Positions 8,450-31,854 of a stretch of DNA of 44,915 nt are shown in pieces. Under the pieces are notes generated by a model. The model worked only from the letters and a program-made list of their open reading frames with translations, searched no databases and was not told the DNA's origin. This stretch comes from Pseudomonas sp. GM78 (GTDB lineage Bacteria; Pseudomonadota; Gammaproteobacteria; Pseudomonadales; Pseudomonadaceae): positions 1-44,915 of the forward strand of contig NZ_AKJF01000019.1 in NCBI RefSeq assembly GCF_000282475.1, given 5' to 3'. Each line of letters starts with the position of its first letter. The first letter of the stretch is position 1. The position numbers and the translations under genes were made by a program.

Positions 8450-10338
8450 GCCAGGCTGTGATGGTGGCGTTCTATGCGAGGGTATCCTCTGATCAACAGG
8501 CTAAACGCGGCACGATTGAAAGCCAGATTGCCGCGTTGACAGAGCGGATCTGTGGCTGATGGAGCCCAGGTTGCTGAAGACATGCGCTTTGTCGACGCAG
8601 GCGTTAGCGGCGCGACGCTGATTCGCCCACAATTGGAACGGCTCAGAGACCGCGCGGCACTTGGCTTGGTCGATCGTCTCTACGTCCTGGCCCCAGACCG
8701 GCTGTCGCGAAAATATGCTCACCAGGCCTTGCTGATGGACGAACTATCGGCGTGCGGCGTAGAGGTCGTGTTCCTCAATCATGCCATTGGCGTCACGCCA
8801 GAGGAGTCGTTGCTGCTGCAGATGCAGGGCATGATTGCGGAGTATGAGCGTGCCAAAATCATGGAGCGCCATCGTCGCGGCAAGCTTCATGGCGCCAGAC
8901 GCGGCAGCATCAATGTGCTGTCGACTGCGCCGTACGGTTATCGCTACATTCGTAAGCAACTTGATGGCGCACCGCACAGTACGTTATCGACTTGGCGCAA
9001 GCAGCGACGGTCAGAGCCATCTTTCAATGGATTGGGATGGAGCGGCTGAGCATTGGCGAAGTGGTTCGGCGTCTTGGTGCTACTGGCACCGTCACCGCTT
9101 CAGGTAAACCGTATTGGGATCGCAGTACCGTGTGGGGGTTATTACAAAATCCAGCGTACATGGGACGAGCTGCTTTCGGTAAAACACAGGCGCGTGATCG
9201 TTTACCTCGGATACGCGCGCAACGCCACAGTGCGGAAGTGCCCAGGAAGGGGTATTCAACCGTACGTACGGATCCAAGTCAGTGGGTCGAGATATCCGTA
9301 CCGGCAATCGTCAGCGAAGGGTTATTTCAGTCGGTTCAGGAACAGCTTACCGAAAATCGCAAATCGGCTCGTCAGCGCGGTCATGGTGCAGTTTACCTGC
9401 TTCAGGGCTTGACCGTTTGCGGCCATTGTCACTACGCCTATTACGGTAAAAAAGTCAGCAAGGCAGCGGTCAAAGGCCAACGTCGGAACTATGCCTATTA
9501 TCGTTGCATTGGAACCGATGCCTACCGCTTTGGTGGCGAACGCGTCTGTGATAATCAGCAAATACGAACGGATCGTCTTGATGAACTGGTGTGGCGGCAG
9601 GTTGTTGAGCTGCTCGCCCATCCTGGAAGAGTAAAGAATGAATATGAGCGTCGGCTGGGAATCCTCGAAGAAAGAGAAAAAACAGATCCTGATACTGCCA
9701 CACTGGAACGACAACGACTGCAACTCGAGAAAGGCAAGTCCCGGCTCATCGATAGTTATGCCGAAGGTATGATCGACAAAATGGACTTTGATCCAAAGAT
9801 GCGAAACTTGAAGAGCCGTCTGGAACAGCTTGATCGGCAGATTCAGGACTCACGGCGTCATCAGGTGGGTCAACGCGAGCTGTTTCTCGTCATTAATCGT
9901 CTCGAAGAGTTTGCCGCTGCTGTCCATGACCGATTGGGTGCTGTGGATTTCGTCACGAAGCGCGAGGTCATCCGTGGCCTGGTCAAACGAGTCGAAATTC
10001 ATAAGGACGAAATTTTGGTGGTGTTCCGGGTTGATCCGGATCCCGGGTTCAACGCCAGCGAGACGTTGATTGGCTCAGGCACCAGAGAAAAAAGTATGCA
10101 AGATCGTACGCGGCGTACTCTCGCCGCTGCTGTCGAACATCCTGCTCAACGAACTCGACCGCGAATTGGAACGGCGGGGCCATTGCTTCGTGCGCTATGC
10201 CGACGACGCGAACATTTATGTGCGCAGTTGTCGTGCTGGCGCGCGGGTGATGGCTGGCGTCGAGCGCTTCCTGAGTCAGCGCCTGAAACTGACGCTGAAC
10301 CGGGAAAAGAGCCGAGTAGCCGGGTCGTGGATGTGTGA
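8446..10338 (+). pseudogene. Large serine recombinase, two frameshifts
   Basis: The first piece (from ATG 8446) has the resolvase start FYARVSSDQQ with the catalytic Ser at about residue 14. It stops at 8557-8559. The homology continues one frame over from 8552 (DRLSRKYAHQ, the conserved Arg helix; IAEYERAKIMERHRRG) to about 8970. It then returns to the first frame as AQAATVRAIFQWIG, a Recombinase-domain region, followed by a zinc-ribbon (TVCGHCHYAYYG) and a coiled-coil C-terminus. The breaks fit one extra base at about 8551 and one missing at about 8972. About 550 residues would be intact. The frame has no stop inside the element: it crosses the right junction at 10119 and ends at 10338 in host sequence. 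Confidence 0.75.
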
Positions 10339-10492
10339 TTACTTGGGCTATGGAATGAGCTGGCATCAACAGCCAAGGTTGCGAGTGGCGACGATGAGTC
10401 TGCGTCGCTTGCGCGACCGACTCAGGGACCTCTTGCGCCGGGTGCGTAGGCGCTCAATGAGTCACATCGTTGAGCAAATAACCCCCGTACTT
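10118..10492 (+). pseudogene. ltrA: Group II intron reverse transcriptase/maturase, 3' part
   Basis: Continuation of the RT gene after the recombinase element. It reads SPLLSNILLNELDRELERRG, then the catalytic YADD box (CFVRYADDANIYV), then LKLTLNREKSRVAG and the start of the maturase (X) region to RRSMSHIVEQITPVL. At about 10492 the usual continuation (RGW..YF) is absent and unrelated sequence follows, so most of the maturase domain is missing. Frame and content match the 5' part ending at 8114. Confidence 0.8.
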
Positions 10493-10758
10493 GTAATGCC
10501 AAAATCTGCGCTCCTTCCAAACTTCTCCTTGCCTTGGAAAGTCGCGCTTTGTTGCAATAGACAAAAAGGCCGGCAGCACACCGTTGCAGCGTTCATTCGA
10601 CCCGGTTTGATGGTTGTCATGCACAGGGTGCTTTCGAGCCTGCCGCTCTACTCGCGTACTAGTCTACAAACCAGTGCAAGCTGCCCCCTTCGGCGAAAAG
10701 CCACCCATCAGAAAGGACCGCTTTCGGCTGAAGATGCCTTTCGCTAATGGCAGCTATG

Positions 10759-14680: not shown

Positions 14681-14891
14681 TGCGCGTGCCTGTGGCTCGG
14701 GCCAGGCGCCCAAAACTGTATAGGTTGTTTTACCTAGTCGTTCCCGGTAATTGGCTCGTAGTCGCTTTCCGTCACCCCCTCTAGACTTTGCCGACAATGG
14801 CGTGGCCTTCTGCCAGCATTTTTCGCTTGCTCGAGCAGCGCTGCCCTGGCAGCAGGCGCCCGCAAAAAAATAAAACGATGGGGTGAGTCTG

Positions 14892-16019
14892 ATGGAGCTG
14901 AATCCGCTGCGCACGGAGGGGCGTAATCCCTGGGTGCTGATCGCAGGATTGTTGCTGACCATCGGGATTTGCAGCGCCCTGGCAGATGCGTGGTGGAAGG
15001 CCGGCCTTGCCGTGCTTGCTCAAGGAACGTGCGCCTGGTTGTGCTGGCGCCGGGTGCCTGTCGCTGCGGTAAAACCTGCCGAAATACCGGTCGAGCATGA
15101 AGACTCTAGCGCTCTCTTCGCCCTTCGAAAGCTGCTGTCGAGCGTCCTGCCCCTGTGGGAAAAGCAGGTTGAACTGGCGCGCACGCAAACCGAAAACGCC
15201 GCTGACGGCTTGACGCAAAAATTCATCGCCATGAGCCGCCAGATGGGTGAAACCATCGCCTTGAGCGCTGACGACAGTAACGGCGATGGCGTCTTCGAGG
15301 TCATCCGCAGTGCGCAGGTCGAATTGCCCAAGGCCGTTACCGCGCTGGATGCAACCCGTGCCGAGCGTGAACATTTTCTGAGTGAAGTCCACACCCTCGG
15401 CAGTGTCGTCGAGGAACTGTTCGGTATGGCTGAAGACGTCGCCAAAATCGCCTCGCAAACCAATCTGCTGGCGCTCAATGCCGCCATTGAAGCCGCCCGC
15501 GCCGGCGAGTCCGGACGCGGCTTCTCGGTGGTGGCCGACGAAGTGCGCAAGCTCTCGACCCTGTCCGGTGCCACCGGGGCGCGCATCACCGAAAAGGTCC
15601 GCGTCATGGGCGGTTCGATGCATGAGTTGATCGAGCATGCCGGGCAAGTCGCCGAGACCGAGCAGGAGAAAATCCGCGAAGCCGAGCACATCGTCAATCA
15701 GGTGCTGGCAGAACTGACCCAGGGCATCGACCGGATGGAGCAGCGGATCACCCTTCTGCAGACCTCCAGCCGCGAAGTGGAACACACCGTCAATGAAGTC
15801 CTCGTCGATCTGCAGTTCCAGGACCGGGTCAGCCAGATCTCGTCGGTGATCACCAGCGACATGCGCCGTTTGCTCGAACGCCTGTACGACGTGGCACCGC
15901 TGGATGCACGCGCCTGGCTGCAGGTGCTGGAGGCCGGCTACACGACGCTCGAGCAAAACCGTATCCATGGCGGTGATACCCAGGCGCAGGTCGAACAGTC
16001 TTCAGTGACCTTCTTCTGA
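14892..16019 (+). CDS. Short methyl-accepting chemotaxis-type protein
   Basis: This is a 375-residue protein. One or two hydrophobic segments lie at about residues 15-60 ([16 protein letters not shown], then [14 protein letters not shown]). There is no periplasmic sensor domain of useful size and no HAMP domain. A signalling coiled coil has its hairpin tip at about 180-205 ([20 protein letters not shown]). The cytoplasmic part after it extends into a variable tail ending [10 protein letters not shown]. It is the first gene of the chemosensory operon. The ATG at 14892 is preferred over the GTG at 14883, because GGGGTGAG then serves as ribosome site. Its short form suggests it reads an internal signal or acts together with the second MCP. 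Confidence 0.85.
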
Positions 16020-16049: not shown

Positions 16050-16418
16050 ATGACAAAGACAGTATTGATCGTCGACGACTCCAGTAGTTTCCGCCAGGTC
16101 GTCGGCATCGCCCTCAGAAACGCCGGCTACAGCGTCGTGGAGGCGTTCGACGGCCGCGATGCCCTCGGCAAGCTGGACGGTCGTAAGATCAATCTGATCG
16201 TCTCCGACGTGAACATGCCGGTCATGGATGGCATCACCTTCGTCAAGGCGGCCAAGCAACTGCCGGCCTACAAATTCACCCCGGTGATCATGCTGACCAC
16301 CGAATCGGGCGAGGCGAAAAAGAGCGAAGGCAAAGCCGCCGGCGTGCGTGCCTGGGTGGTCAAGCCGTTCCAGCCACCCGTCCTGCTGGACGCCGTGTCC
16401 AAACTCATCCTGCCTTAG
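16050..16418 (+). CDS. cheY: CheY-type single-domain response regulator
   Basis: A 122-residue receiver domain with no output domain. Conserved residues are visible: Asp9/Asp10 (IVDDSSS), the phospho-acceptor Asp53 (IVSDVNMP), Thr83/Thr84 and Lys105 (VVKPF). It is the expected phosphorylation target of the CheA encoded two genes downstream. Whether it binds the flagellar switch cannot be told; the operon also encodes a receiver-EAL protein, so this CheY may act as phosphate sink or as output for a non-flagellar process. Confidence 0.9.
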   Translation: MTKTVLIVDDSSSFRQVVGIALRNAGYSVVEAFDGRDALGKLDGRKINLIVSDVNMPVMDGITFVKAAKQLPAYKFTPVIMLTTESGEAKKSEGKAAGVRAWVVKPFQPPVLLDAVSKLILP

Positions 16419-16431
16419 AGGTACGACTGCC

Positions 16432-16770
16432 ATGGCGACGATCAGCCACTTTGAACGCGCTGGAAAACACGGTCTCAGCCTGGTCGGTGAGCTGAATATC
16501 TACAGCGCTGCAACGTTGCGCCAGGAACTCTTGCAAGCCCTGGAGCCACACTCGCAGTTGCTGATCGACCTCGCCGGTATCGAGGACTTCGACACCGCTG
16601 GCGTACAGCTTTTGCTGGTACTCGAACGTGAAGCAGTGCGGCAGGAAAAAGTCGTCAACTTCGTCCGCCATTCCGCCGTCGTGTGGGAAGTGCTGGAGCT
16701 GCTCAATCTGGTCGCCGAGCTCGGTGATTCAACGTCAGGCACGCACGATCAAGCGGAGGTCAGCCAATGA
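16432..16770 (+). CDS. STAS-domain protein (anti-sigma-factor-antagonist type)
   Basis: A 112-residue STAS domain. The ATG at 16432 is used; the frame is open further upstream but overlaps cheY. The motif that carries the regulatory phosphate in SpoIIAA-type proteins (DSSG) appears as DTAG, with Thr55 in the acceptor position, so phosphorylation is possible but not certain. Its stop overlaps cheA by ATGA. STAS proteins occur in several alternative chemosensory operons; the role there is not well defined. No partner kinase (RsbW type) or PP2C phosphatase is in the window. Confidence 0.85.
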   Translation: MATISHFERAGKHGLSLVGELNIYSAATLRQELLQALEPHSQLLIDLAGIEDFDTAGVQLLLVLEREAVRQEKVVNFVRHSAVVWEVLELLNLVAELGDSTSGTHDQAEVSQ

Positions 16771-18965
16771 ATCTGGACAGCGCTCGTGGTGCGTTGGTGC
16801 AAGAGGGGCGCGAGTTGCTGGCGGCCATGGAAGAGGCGCTGCTGGCGATCGAAGACCAGGGCTTCACCGAAGAACGGATCAACGCGATTTTCCGTGCCGC
16901 CCACACCATCAAGGGCTCCGCCGGCCTGTTTGGCCTGGAGTCGCTGGTCAGTTTTACCCATGTCGCGGAAAGTTTGCTGGATCAGGTGCGCACCGGTGAA
17001 CTGTTCGTCGAAGGGGCCATGCTTTCGCTGCTGCTGACCTGCGGCGATTACATCGGCAGCCTCCTCACGGCAGTCGAGGAGGGCAGCGAAATGCACGAGC
17101 CGAACGCAGTGCTGCGTGCGCATTTGCTGGTGCAGTTGCAAGAGTATCTGGACCGCACCCACAGCGACCCCGGGCCGGAAGGCGAGGTGTCCGGTTCGAG
17201 TGAATCCGCGCTTGATGAGACATCCGGTGAACCGCTGAACAGCCACTTCTGGCACTTGTCCCTGCGCCTGTCGGCGGACGTGCTGCGCAATGGCATGGAC
17301 CCGCTGTCCTTCCTGCGCTATTTGAGCAAACTCGGGCGCATCGTCCATCTGCATACCGTCACCGAGCAACTGCCCATCGGCGACAGCTTCGATCCCGAAA
17401 GCTGTTACCTGGGCTTTGAGCTGGAGCTCGAATCCTCAGCCAGCAAGCAACAGATCGAGGACGTCTTCGAGTTTGTCCGCGACGATTGCCAGCTCAGCAT
17501 TCTGGCCCCCCACAGTCGGGTCGAAGAGTACCTGGACCTGATCAAGGTACTGCCGGAATCGCCGCAGCGCCTGGGCGAAATCCTCTTGCAGAGTGGCGCA
17601 CTCACGCCGACCGAACTTGACCGCGTGCTGGATCGTCAGCGTCTTGAAGCACCTCCTGCGCCGCTACTGGGTTCGCTGCTGCTGGAAGAACAACTGGTTC
17701 CGCCACCGGTGATGACCGCCGCGCTGAACAAGCAGAAACACAACGAAGACAAGCGTGTTCACGAACAGGTGTTCATCAAGGTCGAGGTGGGCAAGCTCGA
17801 CCAGTTGATCAACCTGGTCGGTGAGCTGGTGATCGCGGGCGCGGCGACCAATCTGCACGCCCTGCGCCGGGACATGGACATGCTGGAAGAGGCGGCGCAA
17901 TCCATGTCGGTGCTGGTCGAAAGCATCCGTGACGCATCGCTGAGCCTGCGCATGGTCGCCATCGGCGAAGTGTTCCAGCGCTTTCCCCGGGTGGTGCGGG
18001 ACATCTCCAAAGAGCTTGGCAAGGACATTCAGCTGCTGGTGACTGGTGCCGACACCGAACTCGACAAATCCATGGTGGAAAGACTCGCCGACCCATTGAT
18101 GCACATCGTGCGCAACGCCATGGACCACGGGATCGAGACGGCGCAAGAGCGCCTGGGCAATGGCAAGGTCGCCAGCGGTTCGTTGCGCCTCAACGCCTAC
18201 CACGAGTCCGGCAGCATCGTCATTGAAGTCAGTGACGACGGCCGTGGGCTGGATCGCCAGCGCATTCTGGCCAAGGCGATTCAGCGTGGCCTGGTCCCGT
18301 CGGATCAACCGCTGAGCGATGCCGAAGTCTATCGGCTGATATTCGAACCGGGTTTTTCCACCGCCGAACACGTGACCAATCTGTCCGGTCGCGGTGTGGG
18401 CATGGATGTGGTGCGCCGCAACATCGAACTGCTGCGCGGGGAAGTGGAAGTGCTCAGTGAGTTTGGTCGCGGCACCACCGTGCGCATTCGTCTGCCGTTG
18501 ACCCTGGCGATCATCGACGGGTTCCAGGTGCGGGTCGGCGAAGAACACTTCGTACTGCCGCTGGAACAGGTGATCGAGTGCGTCGACCTGCCACCGCAGG
18601 AAGGGCGTCATCACCTGATCAGCCTGCGTGGCGAACCCTTGCCATTCCTGCGTCTGCGCGATCTGTTCGGCATCACCGGCGGTGCCACCGGGCGCGAAAG
18701 CCTGGTGGTGCTGCAGCACGGCGCACACCGTGCCGGCCTGGTGGTGGATCAACTCGTTGGAGAATTCCAGGCGGTGATCAAGCCGCTGGGCATGTTGTTC
18801 CAGAAAAGTCGCGGTTTGAGTGGTTCGACCATCCTCGGTGACGGGCGCGTTGCGCTGATCCTCGATGTCGCCAACCTGCTCCAGCGTGCCAATGCCTTGT
18901 CAGTCGAAACGCCCGGTCGCCCCATGGATGTTGCACCTGACGTCAATCGCAGTGTGATGAATTAA
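16767..18965 (+). CDS. cheA: Chemotaxis histidine kinase CheA with embedded MshEN-like motifs
   Basis: This is a 732-residue CheA. The Hpt (P1) domain holds the phospho-acceptor His46 in [13 protein letters not shown]2-like region spans about 160-250. Residues 268-323 carry two MshEN-type repeats (motif 1: Arg268, Leu269, Gly270, Gly277, Gln291; motif 2 from Leu300 to Gln323). The dimerisation helices ([16 protein letters not shown]) begin at about 335. The ATPase has the N-box [12 protein letters not shown], then DDGRGLD and [10 protein letters not shown] CheW-like domain spans about 570-700. It starts four bases inside the STAS gene after a GGAGG site. CheA phosphorylates CheY, CheB and probably the receiver-EAL protein of this operon. 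The MshEN-like insert is unusual and suggests direct c-di-GMP binding (inference). Confidence 0.9.
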
Positions 18966-18987: not shown

Positions 18988-20628
18988 ATGCAGTGGTTCG
19001 CGAATCTGAAGTTGGGTGCAAAGCTGATCTCCACGTTCCTGGTGGTCGCCCTGGTCGCGCTGGTAATCGGCCTGGCCGCGGTCATCAATATCGGCAAAGT
19101 CAACGATCTGATGACCTCGATGTACAGTGATCGACTGGTGCCGATCCGTGACTTGAACAAGCTGCAGATCGAGTTGGTTCAACACAACCGCCGGGCCTAT
19201 GTTTCCGTGGCCATGAACGACCCGGCGATCACCACTTACCAGCAAACCGAAAACGCCAACTCGGTGCGCAAGATCGAGGAACTGGTTGCGGCCTACCGCC
19301 AGACCTATCTGGTCGACGCGGAAAAACGCCTGCTGGAACAATATGATCAACAAATGCCGGCCTACCTGGCTTCGGCCAAAACCGTGACGGATCTGTTGCT
19401 GGCGAGCCAGTCCGCAGAGGCGCTCGAACGTCTGCGCAATGAAACCAAACCAACGTTCGAAGCCGTGCTGAAAACCGTCTCCGATCTGGTTGAGGTCAAC
19501 AGCAAGACCGCCGAGACGGTCAACCTCGAAGCTGACCAGATCGTTGTCGGCATCAATAACTTCATGATCAGCCTGATGATCGGCGGCTTTGTCCTGGCCC
19601 TGGCATTGGGGTTGCTGATTACTCGCATGATCGTGCGTCAGGTGGGTGGCGAGCCGGCGGCGGCAATGGATGTCCTGCAGCGTGTATCGGGCGGTGATCT
19701 GACGGTCGACGTGCAACTGCGCCAGGGCGACAACACCAGCATGCTCTACAGCTTGCAACTGATGGTGGGCCGTCTGCGGGCGATCATGAGCGACGTACGC
19801 ATGACCGCCGATTCGCTGGCCTCTGCCTCGGAACAAGTCGCGGCGTCTTCCGAAGCCTTGAGCCAGAACGCTTCCGAGCAAGCGGCCAACGTCGAGGAAA
19901 CCAGTGCATCGGTAGAGCAGATATCCGCCACCGTGGCGCAGAACACCGAGAACGCCAAAGTCACCGACAGCATGGCCAGCCAGTCGGCCAAGGATGCGGT
20001 CGAGGGCGGCGAAGCGGTGGGCCAGATGGTCCATGCGATGCGCCAGATTGCGCAGAAGATCAGCATCATCGATGACATTGCCTACCAGACCAACCTGCTG
20101 GCGCTCAACGCGGCCATCGAAGCGGCGCGCGCCGGCGATCATGGCAAGGGCTTCGCGGTGGTCGCGGCCGAAGTGCGCAAGCTCGCCGAGCGCAGTCAAG
20201 TGGCGGCCCAGGAGATCGGCGGCGTGGCCACCGACAGCGTGACCCTGGCCGAGCGCGCCGGGCAGTTGCTTGATCAGATGGTGCCGTCGATCCGCAAGAC
20301 GGCCGACCTGGTGCAGGAAATCACCGCGGCTTCGCGCGAGCAGAATACCGGGCTTGAGCAAATCAATCTGGCGGTCAGTCAATTAGCGCAGACCACTCAG
20401 GTCAACGCGTCGGCCTCTGAAGAGTTGTCCTCGACGTCGGAAGAAATGAGCACCCAGGCGGTGCAGCTGCAAGAGATGATTCAGTTCTTCCGCATCGGCG
20501 ATGAAAACCTGAAAAAGTCCAGCCAGGCACTGGCTCCGGCACGCCGGCCACAACGGGCCGAGGTGATTCCGATGCGACGTCCTTCGCAGGAAGAGATAGT
20601 CGATGAAGCAGCGTTCACTCGATTCTAA
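18988..20628 (+). CDS. Methyl-accepting chemotaxis protein with four-helix-bundle sensor
   Basis: This is a 546-residue transmembrane receptor. TM1 is at about 12-33, followed by a periplasmic four-helix-bundle (4HB_MCP-like) domain of about 155 residues. TM2 is at about 190-212. A HAMP domain ([20 protein letters not shown]) and a long signalling domain follow, with the tip [20 protein letters not shown] at about 360-380. The C-terminus ends DEAAFTRF and lacks the CheR/CheB-binding pentapeptide of the WxxF type. It sits between cheA and cheW in the operon, so it is the main transmembrane input of this array. The ligand is not predictable from the 4HB sequence. Confidence 0.9.
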
Positions 20629-20640
20629 GAGGTTGTCGCC

Positions 20641-21168
20641 ATGTCTTCGTCAACACTGAGTCAGAGCCGTGCACCGGCTCTGCAAGAAGCTCCGCTGATT
20701 CAACAGTTCCTCACGCTGACCCTGGGTGATGAGCTGTACGCGCTGCCGATCGAGCACATCCGCGAGATCATCGAATTCGGCGGCCTGACGAAAATCCCGA
20801 TGATGCCGGCGTTCCTGCGCGGGGTGATCAACCTGCGTGGGGCGGTGCTGCCGGTTGTCGATCTGTCGGTTCGTTTCGGTCACGAGCGAACGACGATCGG
20901 CCGGCGCACCTGCATCGTGATCGTCGAGGTGGTACAGGACGACGAGGCCCAGATGCTGGGCATCATCGTCGACGCGGTGAATGAAGTGCTGGCTGTCGAA
21001 GCCAACCAGGTGGATGCGCGGCCGGCGTTCGGCGCACGCATTCGCGCCGACTTCATCGCCGGCATCCTCAGCCAGAACGATCGGTTCGTCATCGTGCTCG
21101 ACATTCGCCAGGTTCTGTCGGTAGACGAAATCCGCGAATTGGTGGGCATGACTTCGCACGACAAATAG
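20641..21168 (+). CDS. cheW: CheW coupling protein
   Basis: A 175-residue protein formed almost entirely by one CheW domain (FLTLTLGDELYALPIEHIRE, then FLRGVINLRGAVLPVVDLS). It links CheA to the receptors. It starts 12 bp after the MCP gene with an AGAGGTT site, and the CheR gene starts 10 bp after its stop. Confidence 0.92.
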   Translation: MSSSTLSQSRAPALQEAPLIQQFLTLTLGDELYALPIEHIREIIEFGGLTKIPMMPAFLRGVINLRGAVLPVVDLSVRFGHERTTIGRRTCIVIVEVVQDDEAQMLGIIVDAVNEVLAVEANQVDARPAFGARIRADFIAGILSQNDRFVIVLDIRQVLSVDEIRELVGMTSHDK

Positions 21169-21178
21169 GACGCAATGC

Positions 21179-22015
21179 ATGCCAGTCGATAGTGCGTGTT
21201 CAGCATTGGTTTCGACCATCAGCGATCAGGAGTTCGGCCTGTTCCAGCAGTTTTTCCATGAGCAGATCGGGCTCCAGTTGACCACCGTGAAAAAGCCGTT
21301 GCTGTGTGGACGGCTGTCGAAGCGACTGACGGCTTTGGGACTGGACAATTACCGCGCCTATTACAATTTGCTGGTGTCGAAGGCTGGCGCGCAGGAGCGG
21401 GAAACGGCGATCGACCTGATTACCACTCATGAGACCTACTTCTTCCGCGAGCCCAAGCACTTCGAACTGCTGCAGCACAAAGTGATTCCCGGCCTGCATG
21501 CCAGCCCGGAGTTGCGGGTGTGGAGCGCCGCCAGCTCGACCGGAGAAGAGGCCTACACCCTGGCGATGATTCTCGACAGCTTTCGCTCGCCCAAACCCTG
21601 GACGGTCATCGCGTCCGATATCAGCCGCCAGGTCCTGGTCAATGCCCAGCGCGGGCTGTACCCGATGAGTCGCGGCGAGCGCATTCCCGCGCCTTACCTC
21701 AAGCGTTACTGCCTGCGGGGCACCGGGCGTTACGCCGGGTATTTCATGGTCGAGGCGCCGTTGCGCGAGCGCGTGGAGTTCATTCCGGGCAACCTGACGC
21801 AGCAGGACAGTTCACTGGGCATGTTCGACGTAATTCTGCTGCGCAACGTGCTGATCTATTTCGATCAGCCGACCAAGCTGCTGGTGCTGCGCAATGTGGT
21901 GGAGCGGTTGAAGCCGGGCGGCTGGCTGATGGTCGGGCATTCCGAGTCGCTGCATGATTTGCGTTTGCCGCTGGAACTGGTCACGCCGTCGGTTTATCGC
22001 AAGGTCTGTGCATGA
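21179..22015 (+). CDS. cheR: CheR receptor methyltransferase
   Basis: A 278-residue SAM-dependent methyltransferase that adds methyl groups to receptor glutamates. Visible motifs are THETYFFREPKHFE, the SAM-binding segment VWSAASSTGEEAYTLAM and LLRNVLIYFD. The N-terminal helical domain covers about residues 1-80. The second receptor of the operon, with its long signalling domain, is a likely substrate. The stop codon overlaps cheD by ATGA. Confidence 0.92.
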   Translation: MPVDSACSALVSTISDQEFGLFQQFFHEQIGLQLTTVKKPLLCGRLSKRLTALGLDNYRAYYNLLVSKAGAQERETAIDLITTHETYFFREPKHFELLQHKVIPGLHASPELRVWSAASSTGEEAYTLAMILDSFRSPKPWTVIASDISRQVLVNAQRGLYPMSRGERIPAPYLKRYCLRGTGRYAGYFMVEAPLRERVEFIPGNLTQQDSSLGMFDVILLRNVLIYFDQPTKLLVLRNVVERLKPGGWLMVGHSESLHDLRLPLELVTPSVYRKVCA

Positions 22016-22509
22016 GCGAAAAATTGTTCATCAAACCGGGCGGCTGGTTTTTCGGCAGTGGCGACTGCCAGGTCGAAACGGTGCTGGGCTCCTGCGTCAC
22101 GATCACACTTTGGCATCCCGCGCAAAAGCTAGGCGGGTTGTGTCATTTCATGCTGCCCAACCGCTTGCGTGATGCAGTGCAGAAGCTCGATGGTCGATAC
22201 GGCGAAGAGGCTGTGCTGTGGTTGAAAGGCCAGGCCTGGGCCAACGGCGTGGATATCCGCGACTGCGAAGCCAAGCTGTTCGGTGGCGCGCGGGCTCTGG
22301 TCGGGACCAACGGGCACCATGGCGTAGGCGTGCGCAATATTCGCTTTGCCGAGGAGTGCCTGCGGGCCGAGGGCGTCGCCGTCGTCAGCTGTGACCTGGG
22401 CGGGCAGGGGCATCGCTACCTCAGGTTCGATCTTTCCAATGGCGACGTCTGGGTGCGCCATGGGGCGCCTTTGGCATTGCCCGGCAGTTGGGGCAAGAAG
22501 GTTTTATGA
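22012..22509 (+). CDS. cheD: CheD receptor glutamine deamidase
   Basis: A 165-residue CheD. The catalytic Cys28 lies in [10 protein letters not shown] and His45 in GLCHFMLP; both are in the expected spacing. CheD converts receptor Gln to Glu and can interact with CheC or CheY-type partners; no cheC is present here. Translational coupling to both neighbours by ATGA overlaps (cheR before, cheB after) suggests fixed stoichiometry of the adaptation enzymes. Confidence 0.92.
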
Positions 22510-23573
22510 GCATCAAGGTAATGATCGTCGATGACTCCGCTGTCATGCGCCAGGTCATGCAGGAATTGTTGTCCGGGCATAAAGACATTGCGGTGATCGG
22601 CACGGCGATGGACCCGCTGCTGGCTTTGCAGAAGATGCAAGGCAACTGGCCGGACGTGATTTTGTTGGACGTCGAGATGCCGCGCATGGACGGCATCACC
22701 TTCCTTCGGCAAATCATGGCCAGCCGACCGACGCCGGTGGTGATCTGTTCGACGCTGACAGAAAAAGGCGCCGACGTGACGCTTCAGGCGCTGGCTGCCG
22801 GCGCTGTCGAAGTCATCGCCAAACCCACCGCGGGCCTGCGCGATTTTCTCCAGCAGAGCGCCAATGAACTGGTGACGGCCATCCGCACTGCGGCGCAAGC
22901 ACGTCCTCGTCGCAACCGGCCCGAGGCAGGCAGCTACAAATCGCCGCCGGTGAAGCTGACGGCAGATGCGTTGCTACCGGCGTCCGGCAGTCTGCACACC
23001 CTGCGCACGACGCAAAAAATCGCCGTGCTCGGCACGTCCACCGGCGGCACCCAAGCGCTGGAAGTGGTGCTGCGCGAGCTGGGGGTCAACTGTCCGGGCA
23101 TTGCCATCGTGCAACACATGCCCGAGCGATTTACCCGCAGTTTCGCTGAACGCTTGAACTCGCTGTGTGCCATCGAAGTGCGTGAAGCGCGCGACGGCGA
23201 CCGGCTGTTGCCAGGCCTGGCGCTGATTGCGCCGGGCGGGCGGCACATGCAGATAAAACGCAGCGGTGCGCAGTATTACGTTGAGGTCAGGGACGGTCCG
23301 CTGGTCAGCCGGCACCGGCCTTCGGTCGATGTGCTGTTTCGTTCTGCGGCGCAGCAGGCCGGCAGCAATGTGCTCGGGGTGATCATGACCGGCATGGGGG
23401 ACGATGGAGCCAGGGGGATGAAAGAAATGTTCGACGCGAAGGCCCGTACTTATGCGCAGGACGAGGACAGTTGTGTGGTGTTCGGCATGCCCAAAGAAGC
23501 CATCAAGCTGGGAGGGGCCGGGCAGATCGTTGCGCTCGACGCTATTGCGGCGTTGTTGATGGGTTGGCAGTGA
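22506..23573 (+). CDS. cheB: CheB receptor methylesterase
   Basis: A 355-residue CheB. The receiver domain has Asp10 and phospho-acceptor Asp55 ([11 protein letters not shown]). A linker of about 40 residues is followed by the CheB methylesterase domain with the catalytic Ser in GTSTGG, His in QHMPERF and Asp in [11 protein letters not shown]. The ATG at 22506 overlaps the cheD stop; an in-frame GTG at 22488 would add six residues and is less likely. CheB demethylates receptors when phosphorylated by CheA. Confidence 0.92.
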
Positions 23574-23590: not shown

Positions 23591-24853
23591 ATGCAGTCGA
23601 GTATTACTCCAAAACGTATCCTGGTCGTGGACGACAGTCAGGTACAACGTGAATTCGCCGTGGACCTGTGTTCGCGACTGGGCGCTACGGAAATCCACCA
23701 GGCCGAGGACGGACATCAGGCCATTGCCATGTTGCGTGAAGTGCCGCACATCGAAGTGGTGATTCTCGACCTGGAGATGCCCGGCATGGACGGTGTGCAG
23801 GTGTTGCACGAGATGGTCCGGCTGGGCATGGACCCGGCGGTGATCGTCGCCAGTGCGCGGGAAAGCGTACTGCTCACGGTCGTCGAGAGCATGGGCAAGA
23901 GCCTGGGCGTCAAGCTTCTGGGCGTGTTGCAGAAGCCGGTTAGCCTCAGTCAACTGGCGACGAGCCTGGGGCGTTATGCCGCGGTGGTGCAGCAGCGCGA
24001 CACCTTCCTCGCGCTGGCCGAGCAAGGGCCGGAACTGACCGCAGAAGACGTCGCCGACGGCTTGCGCAATCAGCAGTTCTGCGCCTATTTCCAGCCCAAG
24101 GTTTCATTGCAGGATGGCCGGTTGAGCGGTGTGGAAGCCCTGATTCGCTGGCAACATCCCAAGCATGGTCTGTTGCTTCCCGGACATTTTCTCGATCTGG
24201 TCGAGCGCAGCGAAAACATGTCGGCGATCACCATGCTGATACTCGAATTGTCCTTGCGTCATTGTCAGAAATGGCACGCCGACGGCCTGCCGGTCAGCGT
24301 CGCGATCAACCTGTCGGCACGCTCGCTGGCGGATTCGAAACTGGCGGACGCGATCATCGAACGGGTAGCGGCCAGCGGTATCGCTCCGCACTACCTGATG
24401 CTGGAAATTACCGAAAGCGCGCTGATGACCGACCTGGCCATCACCCAGGGAACGCTGGCACGTTTGCGCCTCAAGGGTTTCGGTCTGTCGGTGGACGATT
24501 ACGGAACCGGCTTCTCCTGCATGTTGCAGTTGTCACGCGTGCCATGTTCCGAATTGAAGGTCGACCGTGCTTTCGTCAACGGCGCGAGTGAAAACGTTCA
24601 TCTGCGAATTCTGCTGGAAAGCGCACTGGACATCGCCCGGCGATTGAAGCTCAAAGTGGTGGCCGAAGGTGTGGAAACCCATAAGGACTGGGAGCTACTT
24701 CGCGAGTTGGGATGCGATGAGGCGCAGGGTTACTTCATTGCCAAGCCCATGCCGGGTGAAGCCTTGCTGCTCTGGTGGAGTGCCAACCAGCAGCGGTTGC
24801 AGAAGCTGTTGAAGCCTGCTGGTTTTTTTCGGCGGATTTTCGGTAGCGATTGA
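23591..24853 (+). CDS. Receiver-EAL c-di-GMP phosphodiesterase
   Basis: A 420-residue response regulator with an EAL output domain. Receiver: VVDDSQVQ, acceptor Asp in VILDLEMPGMDG, Lys in LQKPV. EAL: FQPKVSL with GVEALIRWQHP, Asn in INLSARS, ITESALM, VDDYGTGFS, LKVDRAF, AEGVET and QGYFIAKPMP. All metal- and substrate-contacting residues appear to be kept, so c-di-GMP hydrolysis is expected. It follows cheB by 17 bp and looks like the last gene of the chemosensory operon, probably phosphorylated by its CheA. The start is ATG 23591 behind a purine-rich GGGAGGGGCGG site. Confidence 0.9.
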   Translation: MQSSITPKRILVVDDSQVQREFAVDLCSRLGATEIHQAEDGHQAIAMLREVPHIEVVILDLEMPGMDGVQVLHEMVRLGMDPAVIVASARESVLLTVVESMGKSLGVKLLGVLQKPVSLSQLATSLGRYAAVVQQRDTFLALAEQGPELTAEDVADGLRNQQFCAYFQPKVSLQDGRLSGVEALIRWQHPKHGLLLPGHFLDLVERSENMSAITMLILELSLRHCQKWHADGLPVSVAINLSARSLADSKLADAIIERVAASGIAPHYLMLEITESALMTDLAITQGTLARLRLKGFGLSVDDYGTGFSCMLQLSRVPCSELKVDRAFVNGASENVHLRILLESALDIARRLKLKVVAEGVETHKDWELLRELGCDEAQGYFIAKPMPGEALLLWWSANQQRLQKLLKPAGFFRRIFGSD

Positions 24854-25586: not shown

Positions 25587-26750
25587 GAATGCTCCAATCA
25601 ACTTGCCGCACGGCGGCAAGTCGAAATTTCCTCGGGACGCACCGCTATTTGCCAAAAAACGACCGATGCTTCGTGTATTGAGGGCTATTTCGTCTGGTCT
25701 TCCGTGTTAAGCACGCAACTCGCCCATACCCATCAGCTGTTTTCGAGCCATCCACAGGTTTGACAGGGCGAACAGCGTGGTCAACTGAGCTGTGATTTTC
25801 ATCAGTCCACGAAAGCGCACTTTAACGTAACCAAACTGCCGCTTGATCACCCGAAACGGATGTTCAACCTTGGCCCGTGTCTGAGCTTTGCAGTACTCGA
25901 TCTTGCGCTTGGCTTTGTACAGCAGGCTGCGTTTATTCAACTTGGAATAGGTGCTGCGGCGCGCTGCGATTTGACAGATCACTTCACGATTTTCATGCTC
26001 TTCACGCTTCTCGACACCGGTGTATCCAGCGTCCGCATAAACCGCGTTTTCTTCGCCATGCAGTAGCTCGGCGACCTGTGTGACATCGGCCACATTGGCG
26101 GCGGTACCATGGACGTGATGAACCAATCCCGACTCTGCATCGGCGCCAATATGGGCCTTCATCCCGAAGAAATACTGATTACCTTTCTTGGTCTGATGCA
26201 TCTCAGGATCGCGCTTGCCTTCCTCGTTCTTGGTGGAACTGGGGGCATGAATAATGGTGGCATCGACGATAGTGCCTTGACGCAGCGACAGGCCTTTTTC
26301 TTGTAAATAACCGTTGATGACCGCGAGGATCGCAGGTGCGAGTTGATGCTTCTCCAGCAAGTGCCGGAAGTTCATGATCGTAGTGTCTTCCGGGATCGGC
26401 GCGCTCAACGTCAGGCGTGCGAATTGGCGCATGGGCGTGATTTCGTAGAGCGCTTCTTCCATGGCCGGATCGCTCAGGGAGAACCAGTTCTGCAACAGAT
26501 GGATGCGCAGCATGGTTTCCAGCGGATACGGTTTACGGCCACCGCCGGCCTTGGGGTAGAACGGCTCGATCAGCCCCAGCAGGCCTGTCCAGGGCACGAC
26601 CTGATCCATCTCGGCGAGGAAGCGTTCGCGGCGTGTCTGCTTACGTTTTCCGGCGTATTCGAAATCGGAAAAGCTCATCTGGCTCATGGGCAGCTCGGAT
26701 CAGGTTGTCAGGCGTATTTCAGCACAGTTGAAGACTTGTTCGGAGATTCC
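25587..26750 (-). mobile_element. IS5-family insertion sequence (about 1.16 kb)
   Basis: The transposase lies inside. The ends are inferred from a CTAA direct repeat at 25583-25586 and 26751-26754, which fits the YTAR target of the IS5 group, and from imperfect terminal inverted repeats. The left end reads GAATGCTCCAATCAACTTG and the right end, as reverse complement, GGAATCTCCGAACAAGTC. Length fits the group. The inverted repeats match only partly, so the exact ends are tentative by a base or two. Confidence 0.7.
25707..26687 (-). CDS. IS5-family transposase
   Basis: This is a 326-residue DDE transposase that looks intact. The N-terminal segment FLAEMDQVVPW, FYPKAGGGRKPYPLETMLRI and the FRHLLEKHQL region are typical of the IS5 group (DUF772). 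The catalytic triad can be placed at VDATIIHAPSS (first Asp), VYADAGYTG (second Asp) and RAKVEHPFRVIKRQFGY (Glu in the R..E pattern). Its start lies about 60 bp inside the right end of the IS, as usual. It has no frameshift, so the element may still move. Confidence 0.92.
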   Translation of the reverse strand: MSQMSFSDFEYAGKRKQTRRERFLAEMDQVVPWTGLLGLIEPFYPKAGGGRKPYPLETMLRIHLLQNWFSLSDPAMEEALYEITPMRQFARLTLSAPIPEDTTIMNFRHLLEKHQLAPAILAVINGYLQEKGLSLRQGTIVDATIIHAPSSTKNEEGKRDPEMHQTKKGNQYFFGMKAHIGADAESGLVHHVHGTAANVADVTQVAELLHGEENAVYADAGYTGVEKREEHENREVICQIAARRSTYSKLNKRSLLYKAKRKIEYCKAQTRAKVEHPFRVIKRQFGYVKVRFRGLMKITAQLTTLFALSNLWMARKQLMGMGELRA

Positions 26751-29293: not shown

Positions 29294-30622
29294 TCAGTGG
29301 CTGGAACGCCCCGTCATCTCGAGGGCCATGTGGCTGGCGTAGCTGTCGGTCATGCCGGCGATGAAGTCGATCATGCGCAGGAACGAGTTGTGCAGGGGGC
29401 CGTTCGGGTCGGGCGCATTGTTGCCCAGCAGGTCGAGAACGCGCCGGCTCTTGAAGGACGGCGTTCGACCGTTGTGTTGTTCCAGTGCGGCGCCGCAGAA
29501 TGCATTGAGCAGGATCTCCAGGGTGGTGTAGGCACCGATCTCGTGCAGGGTCTTGCGTTTGTCCTGGAAGATCTTCTGTCGAGCCATGTCCTTTGCGTTG
29601 AGGACGCAACGTTTGGCCGGGCCGTGCATATGCTCCACCAGGTCGCCGGTCAGGGAGCCGGCCAGCAGCGCGTCCTGTTGCTCGACAAAGGCGCGGGCCG
29701 CTGCGTTGGTCAGGTGTTCGATGGCCTTGCCCCGCAGGATCGCCAGTTTGCGCCGACGCGAATCCTCGGGGCCGAGCAGGCGATAGGTTTGCGGTAAATC
29801 GTCGCCCACCAGGTCCAGTAGCAGGGATTCGACTTCGGCGTACTCCAGCAACTCCATTTCCAGGCCGTCTTCCAGGTCGATCAACGCATAGCAGATGTCA
29901 TCGGCGGCTTCCATCAGGTACACCAGCGGATGGCGTGCCCAGCGCTGCTCCTCAAGCTGCGGCAGGCCAAGTTTTTGCGCGATCTGCTCCAGCAGCGGCA
30001 GTTCGCTCTGGTAGCAACCGAACTTGTGTTTCTTGTACCCCAGGGAGTCGGCGTGCCTGGCTGTCCATGGGTATTTCAGGTAAGTGCCCAGGGTGGCATA
30101 GGTCAGCCGGGTGCCGCCGTCGAACTGGTGATATTCAAGCTGGGTCAGTACCCGGAAGCCTTGGGCGTTGCCTTCGAAATTGAGAAAATCATTGCGCTGC
30201 TCTTCGTTCATCGCGTCCAGCCAGCCCCGTCCGGCGGCTTGCTGGAACCAGTGCCGAATCGCGTCTTCGCCGGAATGGCCAAAGGGTGGATTACCGATGT
30301 CATGGGCCAGGCAGGCCGATTGCACCACCATCCCCAGATCGCTGGGTTCACACCACTCGGGCAGGGCGCTGCGCAGGGTTTCGCCGACGCGCATACCCAG
30401 TGAACGGCCGACGCAACTGACTTCCAGCGAGTGGGTCAGGCGCGTGTGGATATGGTCGTTGCTGTGCACCGGATGAACTTGAGTCTTGCGCCCGAGACGG
30501 CGGAACGCTCCCGAGAAAATGATCCGGTCATGGTCTTTGTGAAAAGGGCTGCGGCCCACTTCTTCCGGGCTGTACAGGGGCTTTCCGAGGCGTTCGCGGG
30601 TAAGCAGGGTAGGCCAATCCAA
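29294..30622 (-). CDS. dgt: dGTPase-like HD-domain nucleotide triphosphohydrolase
   Basis: A 442-residue member of the dGTP triphosphohydrolase family, which splits dNTPs into nucleoside and tripolyphosphate. Visible features are the N-terminal [12 protein letters not shown], the first His in [11 protein letters not shown] and the HD motif in [17 protein letters not shown]. The family C-terminal region contains [13 protein letters not shown]. Length fits the family. The start is TTG at 30622 (read as Met) with a GGAGAG site; no ATG lies near. The next gene upstream on this strand ends about 70 bp before it. Confidence 0.9.
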
Positions 30623-30690: not shown

Positions 30691-31854
30691 CTACAGCCCG
30701 ATTGCGTCGATATCGATGAGCAACAGGCGTTTGCCGTTGTCGAAAAATTGCCCGGCGGTGAGGCAGTACTGATTGCTGGTGGCGTCGCGGTAGGTATTGG
30801 AAAGGGTCAGCTGACGGTCTTCCCAGCCCTGGGCCAGCAGGTGATAGAAATACGGACGCCACGACCAGTTATGGCCCAGGTAGCGGTTGTCGGCGACCCA
30901 GCCGTTGTTGCGCCATTCCAGGTTGGGCGTCAGCTGCGTACCGTGCCGGTCGCACTGGTAGAAACGCAGCAGCCAGGGAAAGGCATCCAGTTGTGGCAAG
31001 GCATCCAGGGGCGCGCAAGCCTGTGCCCAGGCCTGCAGGATCGCCATCAGTTCGCTCAGTTGCTGGCGCATGATCTTCAGGCGACCGCGCTCGGCCAGCT
31101 TTTGCTGCACATAACGCTGGCGCAGGTACGCAAAGCGCTCGACGAAGGCGTCAGCGGCAAAGAAATCCGCTTGTGCTGCGGCAAACAGAAAGCCCTGGAC
31201 ATAACGTGAGCCGCACTCCAGGGCAAAATTCAGTTGCGCTTCGGTCTCCACGCCTTCGGCGATGATCCAGCATCCGGTTTTTTCCGCCATTTGTGCCAGC
31301 GCCTTGACCACATCGCTGCTTGGCCCGCCCAGCGCCGCCGCCTGGAACAGGCGCATATCGAGCTTGAGAATGTCCGGTTGCAGCGCCAGTACCCGATCGA
31401 GCTGAGAGTATCCGGCGCCGAAATCATCGATGGCGATCCGTGCGCCGGCTTGCCGATAGCGTGCCACCACTTGTGCCAGGCGCTGGATGTCGCCACCCAG
31501 TTCAGTGATTTCGAAAACGATGCGCTGCGGGTCGACACCGTGTTTTTGCAGTTGTGCGAGGCTCGGCAACGGTTGGTCCGGGCGCAGGCGGCTGATCCAG
31601 CGTGGGGAAATGTTCAGGCTGAGAAACCAGTCGCCGGGCGCTTCATGCAAGCGACTCAGCGCGTTGTCGCGTAGCTGGCGGTCCAGGCGACGCAGGGCAA
31701 CGGCGTTGGTTCGGGGATCGTCGAACAGCGGCCCCACTGAAGCCAGTTGGCCGTCGGCCTGGCGCAGTCGACCCAGGGCTTCCACGCCGGCGATACGGCC
31801 GGTGGCGGTATCGATGAACGGCTGAAAGCAGGCGAGCGGTTGCCCGTGGATCAC
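30691..31854 (-). CDS. EAL phosphodiesterase with YkuI-type C-terminal domain
   Basis: This 387-residue cytoplasmic protein has an EAL domain at about 1-245. FQPFID is followed by GVEALGRLR, LNISPRW, FEITELGG, IDDFGAGYS, LKLDMRLF, AEGVET and VQGFLFA, so catalytic residues look complete. The C-terminal domain (about 255-385) has the PAS-like pattern of the YkuI_C family: FYQCDRHGTQLTPN, then RPYFYHLLAQ and DATSNQYCLTAGQ. That domain is thought to bind a small ligand and regulate the EAL domain. The start is GTG 31854 with an AAGGAGG site. It is not linked to a kinase or cyclase gene here. Confidence 0.88.
   Translation of the reverse strand: MIHGQPLACFQPFIDTATGRIAGVEALGRLRQADGQLASVGPLFDDPRTNAVALRRLDRQLRDNALSRLHEAPGDWFLSLNISPRWISRLRPDQPLPSLAQLQKHGVDPQRIVFEITELGGDIQRLAQVVARYRQAGARIAIDDFGAGYSQLDRVLALQPDILKLDMRLFQAAALGGPSSDVVKALAQMAEKTGCWIIAEGVETEAQLNFALECGSRYVQGFLFAAAQADFFAADAFVERFAYLRQRYVQQKLAERGRLKIMRQQLSELMAILQAWAQACAPLDALPQLDAFPWLLRFYQCDRHGTQLTPNLEWRNNGWVADNRYLGHNWSWRPYFYHLLAQGWEDRQLTLSNTYRDATSNQYCLTAGQFFDNGKRLLLIDIDAIGL

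Follow-up and report, generated by a model that had tools for sequence, protein, structure and literature searches.

The chemosensory histidine kinase CheA of Pseudomonas sp. GM78 carries, between its P2-like region and its dimerisation helices, a segment that profile searches, family-wide conservation and a predicted fold support as a genuine MshEN-type domain. The gene was analysed in a window of 44,915 nucleotides (NZ_AKJF01000019.1, positions 1 to 44,915, forward strand), and a sequence-only reading of that window had already placed such a domain there. We propose that this MshEN_N domain binds cyclic di-GMP (c-di-GMP) and feeds the c-di-GMP level into the CheA of an F8-like array, a reading to which we give a probability of about 0.66; from sequence, the kinase probably reads the messenger directly. 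The layout of the protein is as follows.

16767..18965 (+), cheA, 732-residue histidine kinase with P1, P2-like region, MshEN, P3, P4 and P5 (translation, Pfam)
16791..17027 (+), P1 Hpt domain, residues 9-87 (Pfam PF01627, 3e-14)
17244..17504 (+), P2-like conserved region, about residues 160-246 (conserved in the full-length alignment; P2 name from position only)
17520..17549 (+), extra helix ahead of the motifs, residues 252-261, holding a conserved EYxxLI (predicted model; conserved together with the domain)
17568..17639 (+), MshEN motif I, residues 268-291 (translation, profiles, structural alignment)
17664..17735 (+), MshEN motif II, residues 300-323, with Leu300, Gln309 and Met316 departing from the MshE consensus
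17772..17936 (+), P3 dimerisation helices, residues 336-390 (Pfam PF02895, 2.9e-8)
18090..18503 (+), P4 ATP-binding domain, residues 442-579 (Pfam PF02518, 8.7e-19)
18519..18887 (+), P5 CheW-like domain, residues 585-707 (Pfam PF01584, 2.3e-27)

The domain set of a CheA was complete, with Hpt, H-kinase_dim, HATPase_c and CheW all above their Pfam cut-offs. The kinase core residues were invariant across 60 aligned rows, own included, as was His46 of P1, which we take to be the phospho-acceptor. The P2-like region (residues 152-251) had no significant sequence match in the PDB, where its one match stood at an expectation value (E) of 0.73.

Both motifs keep the ligand-contact residues of MshEN

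The MshEN consensus consists of two tandem 24-residue motifs, (R/K/L)LGxx(LVI)(LVI)xxG(LVI)(LVI)xxxxLxxxLxxQ, and translation confirmed both in this CheA, separated by a spacer of 8 residues. The ligand-contact residues Leu2, Gly3, Leu21 and Gln24 are present in each (Leu269, Gly270, Leu288 and Gln291 in motif I; Leu301, Gly302, Leu320 and Gln323 in motif II). Motif I, said earlier to fit at all fixed positions, does so except at Ala278, where the published consensus has Leu, Val or Ile. In motif II the two deviations first noticed, Leu300 and Gln309, are both present, and position 17 adds a third, Met316, where motif I has Leu284. The motif was defined by Wang et al. 2016 (PMC5013675), according to whom MshEN_N of MshE alone binds c-di-GMP with 0.35 µM, and Gln32 and Gln61 of MshE bond ribose and phosphate.

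The sequence-only reading took motif II as degenerate, and this stands for Gln309, a real deviation, and not for Leu300. In PilF GSPII-B of Thermus thermophilus, whose dissociation constant (KD) is 6 nM, the first position of motif II is Leu; GSPII-C has Pro there with a KD of about 460 nM, and the consensus has been widened to R/K/L, which includes Leu300 (PMC11731258). Since GSPII-B combines Leu with a KD of 6 nM, Leu300 is, by analogy, compatible with tight c-di-GMP binding. The published PilF data and the family, in which Pro is the commonest residue at that place, led us to reject Leu300 as a mark of decay. Regarding Gln309, the solved PilB 5zfr has Asn at the equivalent turn place of its motif I in the profile alignment, so the turn is possible without Gly, and the turn Gly is absent from the ligand contacts listed in PMC5013675. 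The spacer length was treated as variable in these sequence comparisons because the solved PilF GSPII-C and PilB pieces have 7 residues (own count from alignments).

Profile searches and the predicted fold point to PilF

CheA residues 252-337 were searched with phmmer against 177,635 PDB sequences and matched PilF (6f8l) at 1.5e-7, PilB (5zfr) at 2.6e-4 and PilB (5tsg, 6olj) at 2.1e-3; MshE (5htl) reached only 0.26 and an unrelated coat protein 0.033. A family profile of the domain, built from 81 sequences including its own, matched PilF at 1e-18, PilB at 2e-8, MshE at 3.1e-5 and the c-di-GMP-bound PilF GSPII-B (8pfa) at 9.6e-5. All 14 PDB sequences at or below 0.015 were PilF, PilB or MshE, and the first unrelated one stood at 0.68. 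By these sequence comparisons the motif similarity exceeds chance. The NCBIfam model NF053729.1, an MshE-related c-di-GMP motif model with a cut-off of 38 bits on the whole protein, matched 81/81 family rows at E <= 1e-3. Pfam lists no T2SSE_N domain in this CheA, a miss that is uninformative, since the solved MshEN_N pieces of PilB and PilF escape Pfam as well. The Pfam family DUF4388 matched 44/81 rows at E <= 0.1 (best 1.6e-5), and also both control pieces (PilB, PilF), these under its cut-off. The NCBIfam model of NfrB, an Escherichia coli MshEN protein that is c-di-GMP-activated according to the model name and, unlike CheA, a glycosyltransferase fusion, matched 35/81 CheA rows at E <= 1e-3.

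The AlphaFold model of the domain is an antiparallel four-helix bundle, the fold expected of MshEN, and in a VIA-align comparison over 251 chains the MshEN pieces of PilF lay closest. GSPII-B and GSPII-C are the closest solved relatives in both sequence and fold. The predicted fourth helix heads towards the P3 dimerisation helices.

Contact residues are conserved across the family

Relatives were drawn from 57 genomes of the same genus and order (own included), from the best 80 of 579 GTDB-representative stretches and from 369 genomes of the class. These gave 109 CheA rows with a profile match starting in its first 36 positions, 107 of them distinct; nine were dropped by eye as decayed or without the domain (L015, L092, L094, L098, L102, L105, L109, L111, L116), and 98, own included, were counted. 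Contact Gly3 was found in 98/98 rows in motif I and 96/98 in motif II, and contact Gln24 in 96/98 and 97/98, respectively. Position 1 was Arg in 66/98 rows in motif I, and in motif II Pro in 53, Arg in 13, Gln in 9, Leu in 8 and Lys in 4. Gly10 of motif II was present in only 39/98 rows; 59/98, own included, were without it, and 19 had Gln. With position 1 left out of the twelve contact positions, 89/98 rows passed a relaxed rule on the others, and the spacer spanned 1 to 23 residues. Mean entropy was 0.60 and 1.04 bits at the contacts, 0.96 and 1.81 bits at core and turn positions, and 2.32 and 2.01 bits elsewhere. Gly270, Leu273, Glu283, Gln291, Gly302, Ala319 and Gln323 were invariant in 60 full-length domain-bearing rows. 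In L019 and L026, which come from other families of the order, the spacer was shortened and motif I had no Gln24; there is thus a short type, which possibly does not bind.

A model built from the CheA domain separated 139 family CheAs into 99 scoring 49.5-92.7 bits, 5 scoring 10-40 and 35 scoring less or nothing. On 30 PilB loci it gave at most 11.2 bits, a control that is partly circular and includes at least two loci (L272, L277) without a visible N-terminus; on 30 GspE loci it gave at most 0.4 bits, which shows little, most of these seeming by eye to be without the four-helix region. NF053729.1 was run on 10 PilB N-termini of the class, picked from the 30 for a clean start, and scored at best 20.0 bits (3/10 at E <= 1, 1/10 at E <= 1e-3, 0/10 above the cut-off). 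A bundle of the same type can therefore lose the signature if nothing maintains it.

The operon ends in a phosphodiesterase gene

By Pfam, the operon runs MCP (methyl-accepting chemotaxis protein), CheY, STAS, CheA, MCP, CheW, CheR, CheD, CheB and REC-EAL. The genes around cheA are listed below.

14883..16019 (+), MCP signalling-domain protein, first gene of the operon (Pfam PF00015)
16050..16418 (+), CheY-like receiver (Pfam PF00072)
16423..16770 (+), STAS domain protein, start codon assumed (Pfam PF13466)
18988..20628 (+), chemoreceptor with a 4-helix-bundle sensor (Pfam PF00015, PF12729)
20641..21168 (+), CheW (Pfam PF01584)
21179..22015 (+), CheR (Pfam PF01739)
22012..22509 (+), CheD (Pfam PF03975)
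22500..23573 (+), CheB, start codon assumed (Pfam PF01339, PF00072)
23591..24853 (+), REC-EAL response regulator phosphodiesterase, PvrR-like, start codon assumed (Pfam PF00563 3.3e-63, PF00072)

The REC-EAL protein scored 332.8 bits against the NCBIfam PvrR model, under its cut-off of 580. From the gene content and two papers on other systems, we infer an F8-like chemosensory class. F8 systems (P. syringae cluster II, Methylomicrobium alcaliphilum) are a further gammaproteobacterial Che system, and that of P. syringae is not its chemotaxis system (PMC11253619, PMC7184735). The order MCP-CheY-STAS-CheA-MCP-CheW-CheR-CheD-CheB recurs in relatives with variations, with the domain present or absent. 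A promoter scan gave no promoter-like site, and 13 terminator-like sites were found against 8.9 expected.

The sequence-only reading had joined the domain and the phosphodiesterase in a closed loop, in which c-di-GMP tunes CheA and CheA tunes c-di-GMP. In this operon the REC-EAL gene starts about 17 bp past cheB (start assumed), and it is one likely CheA target in this bacterium, to which phosphate would be transferred. A REC-EAL gene follows the Che genes in L147, the nearest relative found, and in L056, L060, L064 and L076, that is, in only some relatives' operons. An EAL or GGDEF gene lay within 8 kb on the same strand at 15/96 loci with an intact domain versus 4/39 others (EAL by phmmer, GGDEF by motif pattern; under 6 kb of downstream flank in 30/135 loci, 22 of them among the 96). 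EAL linkage as a family trait is unsupported by this count. The loop may hold in Pseudomonas sp. GM78 and does not look like the reason for which the family keeps the domain; that the domain exists because CheA drives its operon's own phosphodiesterase is accordingly improbable.

Further features of the window were recorded. Downstream of the operon lies a transposase-like open reading frame (25707-26687, -, by eye). A second EAL protein, with a YkuI_C domain (30691-31854, -), stands beside an HD-domain protein (29294-30622, -). A recombinase-family protein adjoins an apparent reverse transcriptase fragment, judged by eye (8992-10747, +), and a CheW-receiver fusion (CheV-like) lies near the contig end (43826-44869, +).

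Proposed mechanism and alternatives

We envisage that one c-di-GMP would be bound between the two motifs and would stiffen or shift the four-helix bundle, that helix 4 would pass the change to P3, and that P1/P4 engagement and phosphotransfer would change as a result. The c-di-GMP level would in this way reach the CheA of the F8-like array directly, bypassing the receptors. This mechanism is based on homology, the predicted four-helix fold, the conserved contact residues and the place of the domain beside P3. P. aeruginosa offers a precedent for a chemotaxis kinase that directs the breakdown of c-di-GMP: Pch activity there is promoted by CheA phosphorylation (PMC3861689). According to a review, the kinase CckA is a c-di-GMP receptor through its ATP-binding domain (PMC7288161).

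Several points weigh against this reading. On the whole CheA, NF053729.1 gave 32.1 bits (E 7.2e-8), under the cut-off, and the cut-off was reached on isolated segments only (39.4 bits over 86 residues, 38.0 bits over 115 residues), so that the profile check proposed earlier came out mixed; in all three cases the best stretch was motif I only. The spacer of 8 residues compares with 5 in MshE, and motif II departs at three positions, of which Gln309 occupies the place of Gly47, which with Gly18 is required for the turns of MshE (PMC5013675). The relatives were gathered partly by domain similarity and domain-less rows were excluded, which inflates the conservation, and many close relatives sharing the operon do not have the domain, which is therefore dispensable to the system. 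The helix from the domain to P3 is confidently modelled only to about residue 331, with block means of 68 and 56 beyond. The sign of the effect is a guess: we would place at about 55:45 that c-di-GMP raises CheA output, and hence its own breakdown, as negative feedback.

In another explanation the domain binds c-di-GMP and mainly controls where CheA sits, its partners or how the array assembles, not catalysis. Large assemblies are where other MshEN proteins act, namely pilus and secretion ATPases, and a chemosensory array is a localised complex; the domain adjoins P3, however, which is thought to be the site of kinase activity control, and we regard this explanation as unlikely. Still less to be expected is a structural relic, a bundle kept as spacer or docking module whose useful c-di-GMP binding has gone in this copy: Gln309 for Gly, Met316 for Leu and the failure of the whole protein to reach the NCBIfam cut-off speak for it, and small changes can matter, as a change of the third-position Gly cripples binding in MshE (PMC5013675) and in the rebuilt PilF GSPII-A, but the third-position Gly and the final Gln are kept in both motifs, the contact positions are better conserved in the family than the remainder, and the motifs erode where the CheA domain fails (L015, L098, L142).

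The domain appears to have been lost repeatedly

A quick kinase-core tree was made from 136 family CheAs and 3 outgroup rows, with 3 short rows dropped; the domain was intact in 97 of the CheAs, partial in 5 and absent from 34. This tree requires at least 19 switches between an intact and a non-intact state, a count that is blind to gain versus loss and comes from a tree that leaves 40/136 inner branches open and has several uncertain long branches. Repeated loss is favoured because domain-less CheAs are nested among domain-bearing ones and remnants of the domain exist, and by our reading of these sequences the changes are mostly losses. The domain appears to be a removable modulator that has disappeared many times from operons which themselves persisted. 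In the class sample at least 34/369 genomes, own included, matched over the whole profile at E <= 1.1e-42, and in at least two of them (G342, G357) motif II or the domain is gone. In a phylum sample, 14/398 genomes matched the domain region at E <= 1e-12, and 3 of these, from outside the class, matched over only part of it.

Individual relatives showed further variation. The domains of L015, L098 and L142 are seemingly in mid-decay, with motif I near intact and motif II eroded in L142. The CheA of L012 carries an MshEN domain, and that of L104, a record of a metagenome-assembled genome labelled Nitrospira, has a tightly spaced MshEN-like motif pair. Two such operons lie about 14 kb apart on G008:C5; the CheA of one (L149) has the domain, and that of the other (L148) scores as without it. 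CheA relatives also occur on plasmid records, NZ_CP139142.1 (Pseudomonas sp. HR96, 180 kb; 53.3% identity over 92% of the protein) and NZ_CP102455.1 (Aeromonas sp. BC14, 98 kb; 52.4% over 97%), and the system may therefore move.

Relation to known systems and implications

The MshEN-CheA combination has been known since 2016: Wang et al. named such fusions in one sentence and referred to a supplementary table, with 'CheA' occurring once in the main text (PMC5013675). No experimental study of MshEN-CheA, whether of binding or of kinase control, was among the matches listed in the open-licence literature. Compared with MshE of Vibrio cholerae (PDB 5HTL), this CheA shows no MshEN_C subdomain, has the longer spacer, differs at three places in motif II (Leu, Gln and Met), and joins the domain to a histidine kinase instead of an ATPase. 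PilF GSPII-B shares Leu at motif II position 1 and has Lys in place of Arg at motif I position 1, and GSPII-C reads PLGEIL, the same as the CheA family consensus; unlike CheA, PilF is a traffic ATPase with three such domains. The present analysis adds the family-wide conservation, the correction on Leu300, a fold prediction and a pattern in which the domain is lost repeatedly.

Communication between c-di-GMP and chemosensory systems is known to run via adaptors and via enzymes influenced by CheA-type kinases. A receptor domain within the kinase itself would be the shortest route from messenger to array. We lean slightly towards the view that a widespread gammaproteobacterial array class is gated internally by c-di-GMP through an MshEN domain fused close to the dimerisation helices of CheA, an ancestral input that many lineages would have dropped independently, keeping the rest of the operon. 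If so, the effect would be directly measurable on the kinase after purification, and natural relatives that share the operon but differ in whether they have the domain would offer a ready comparison.
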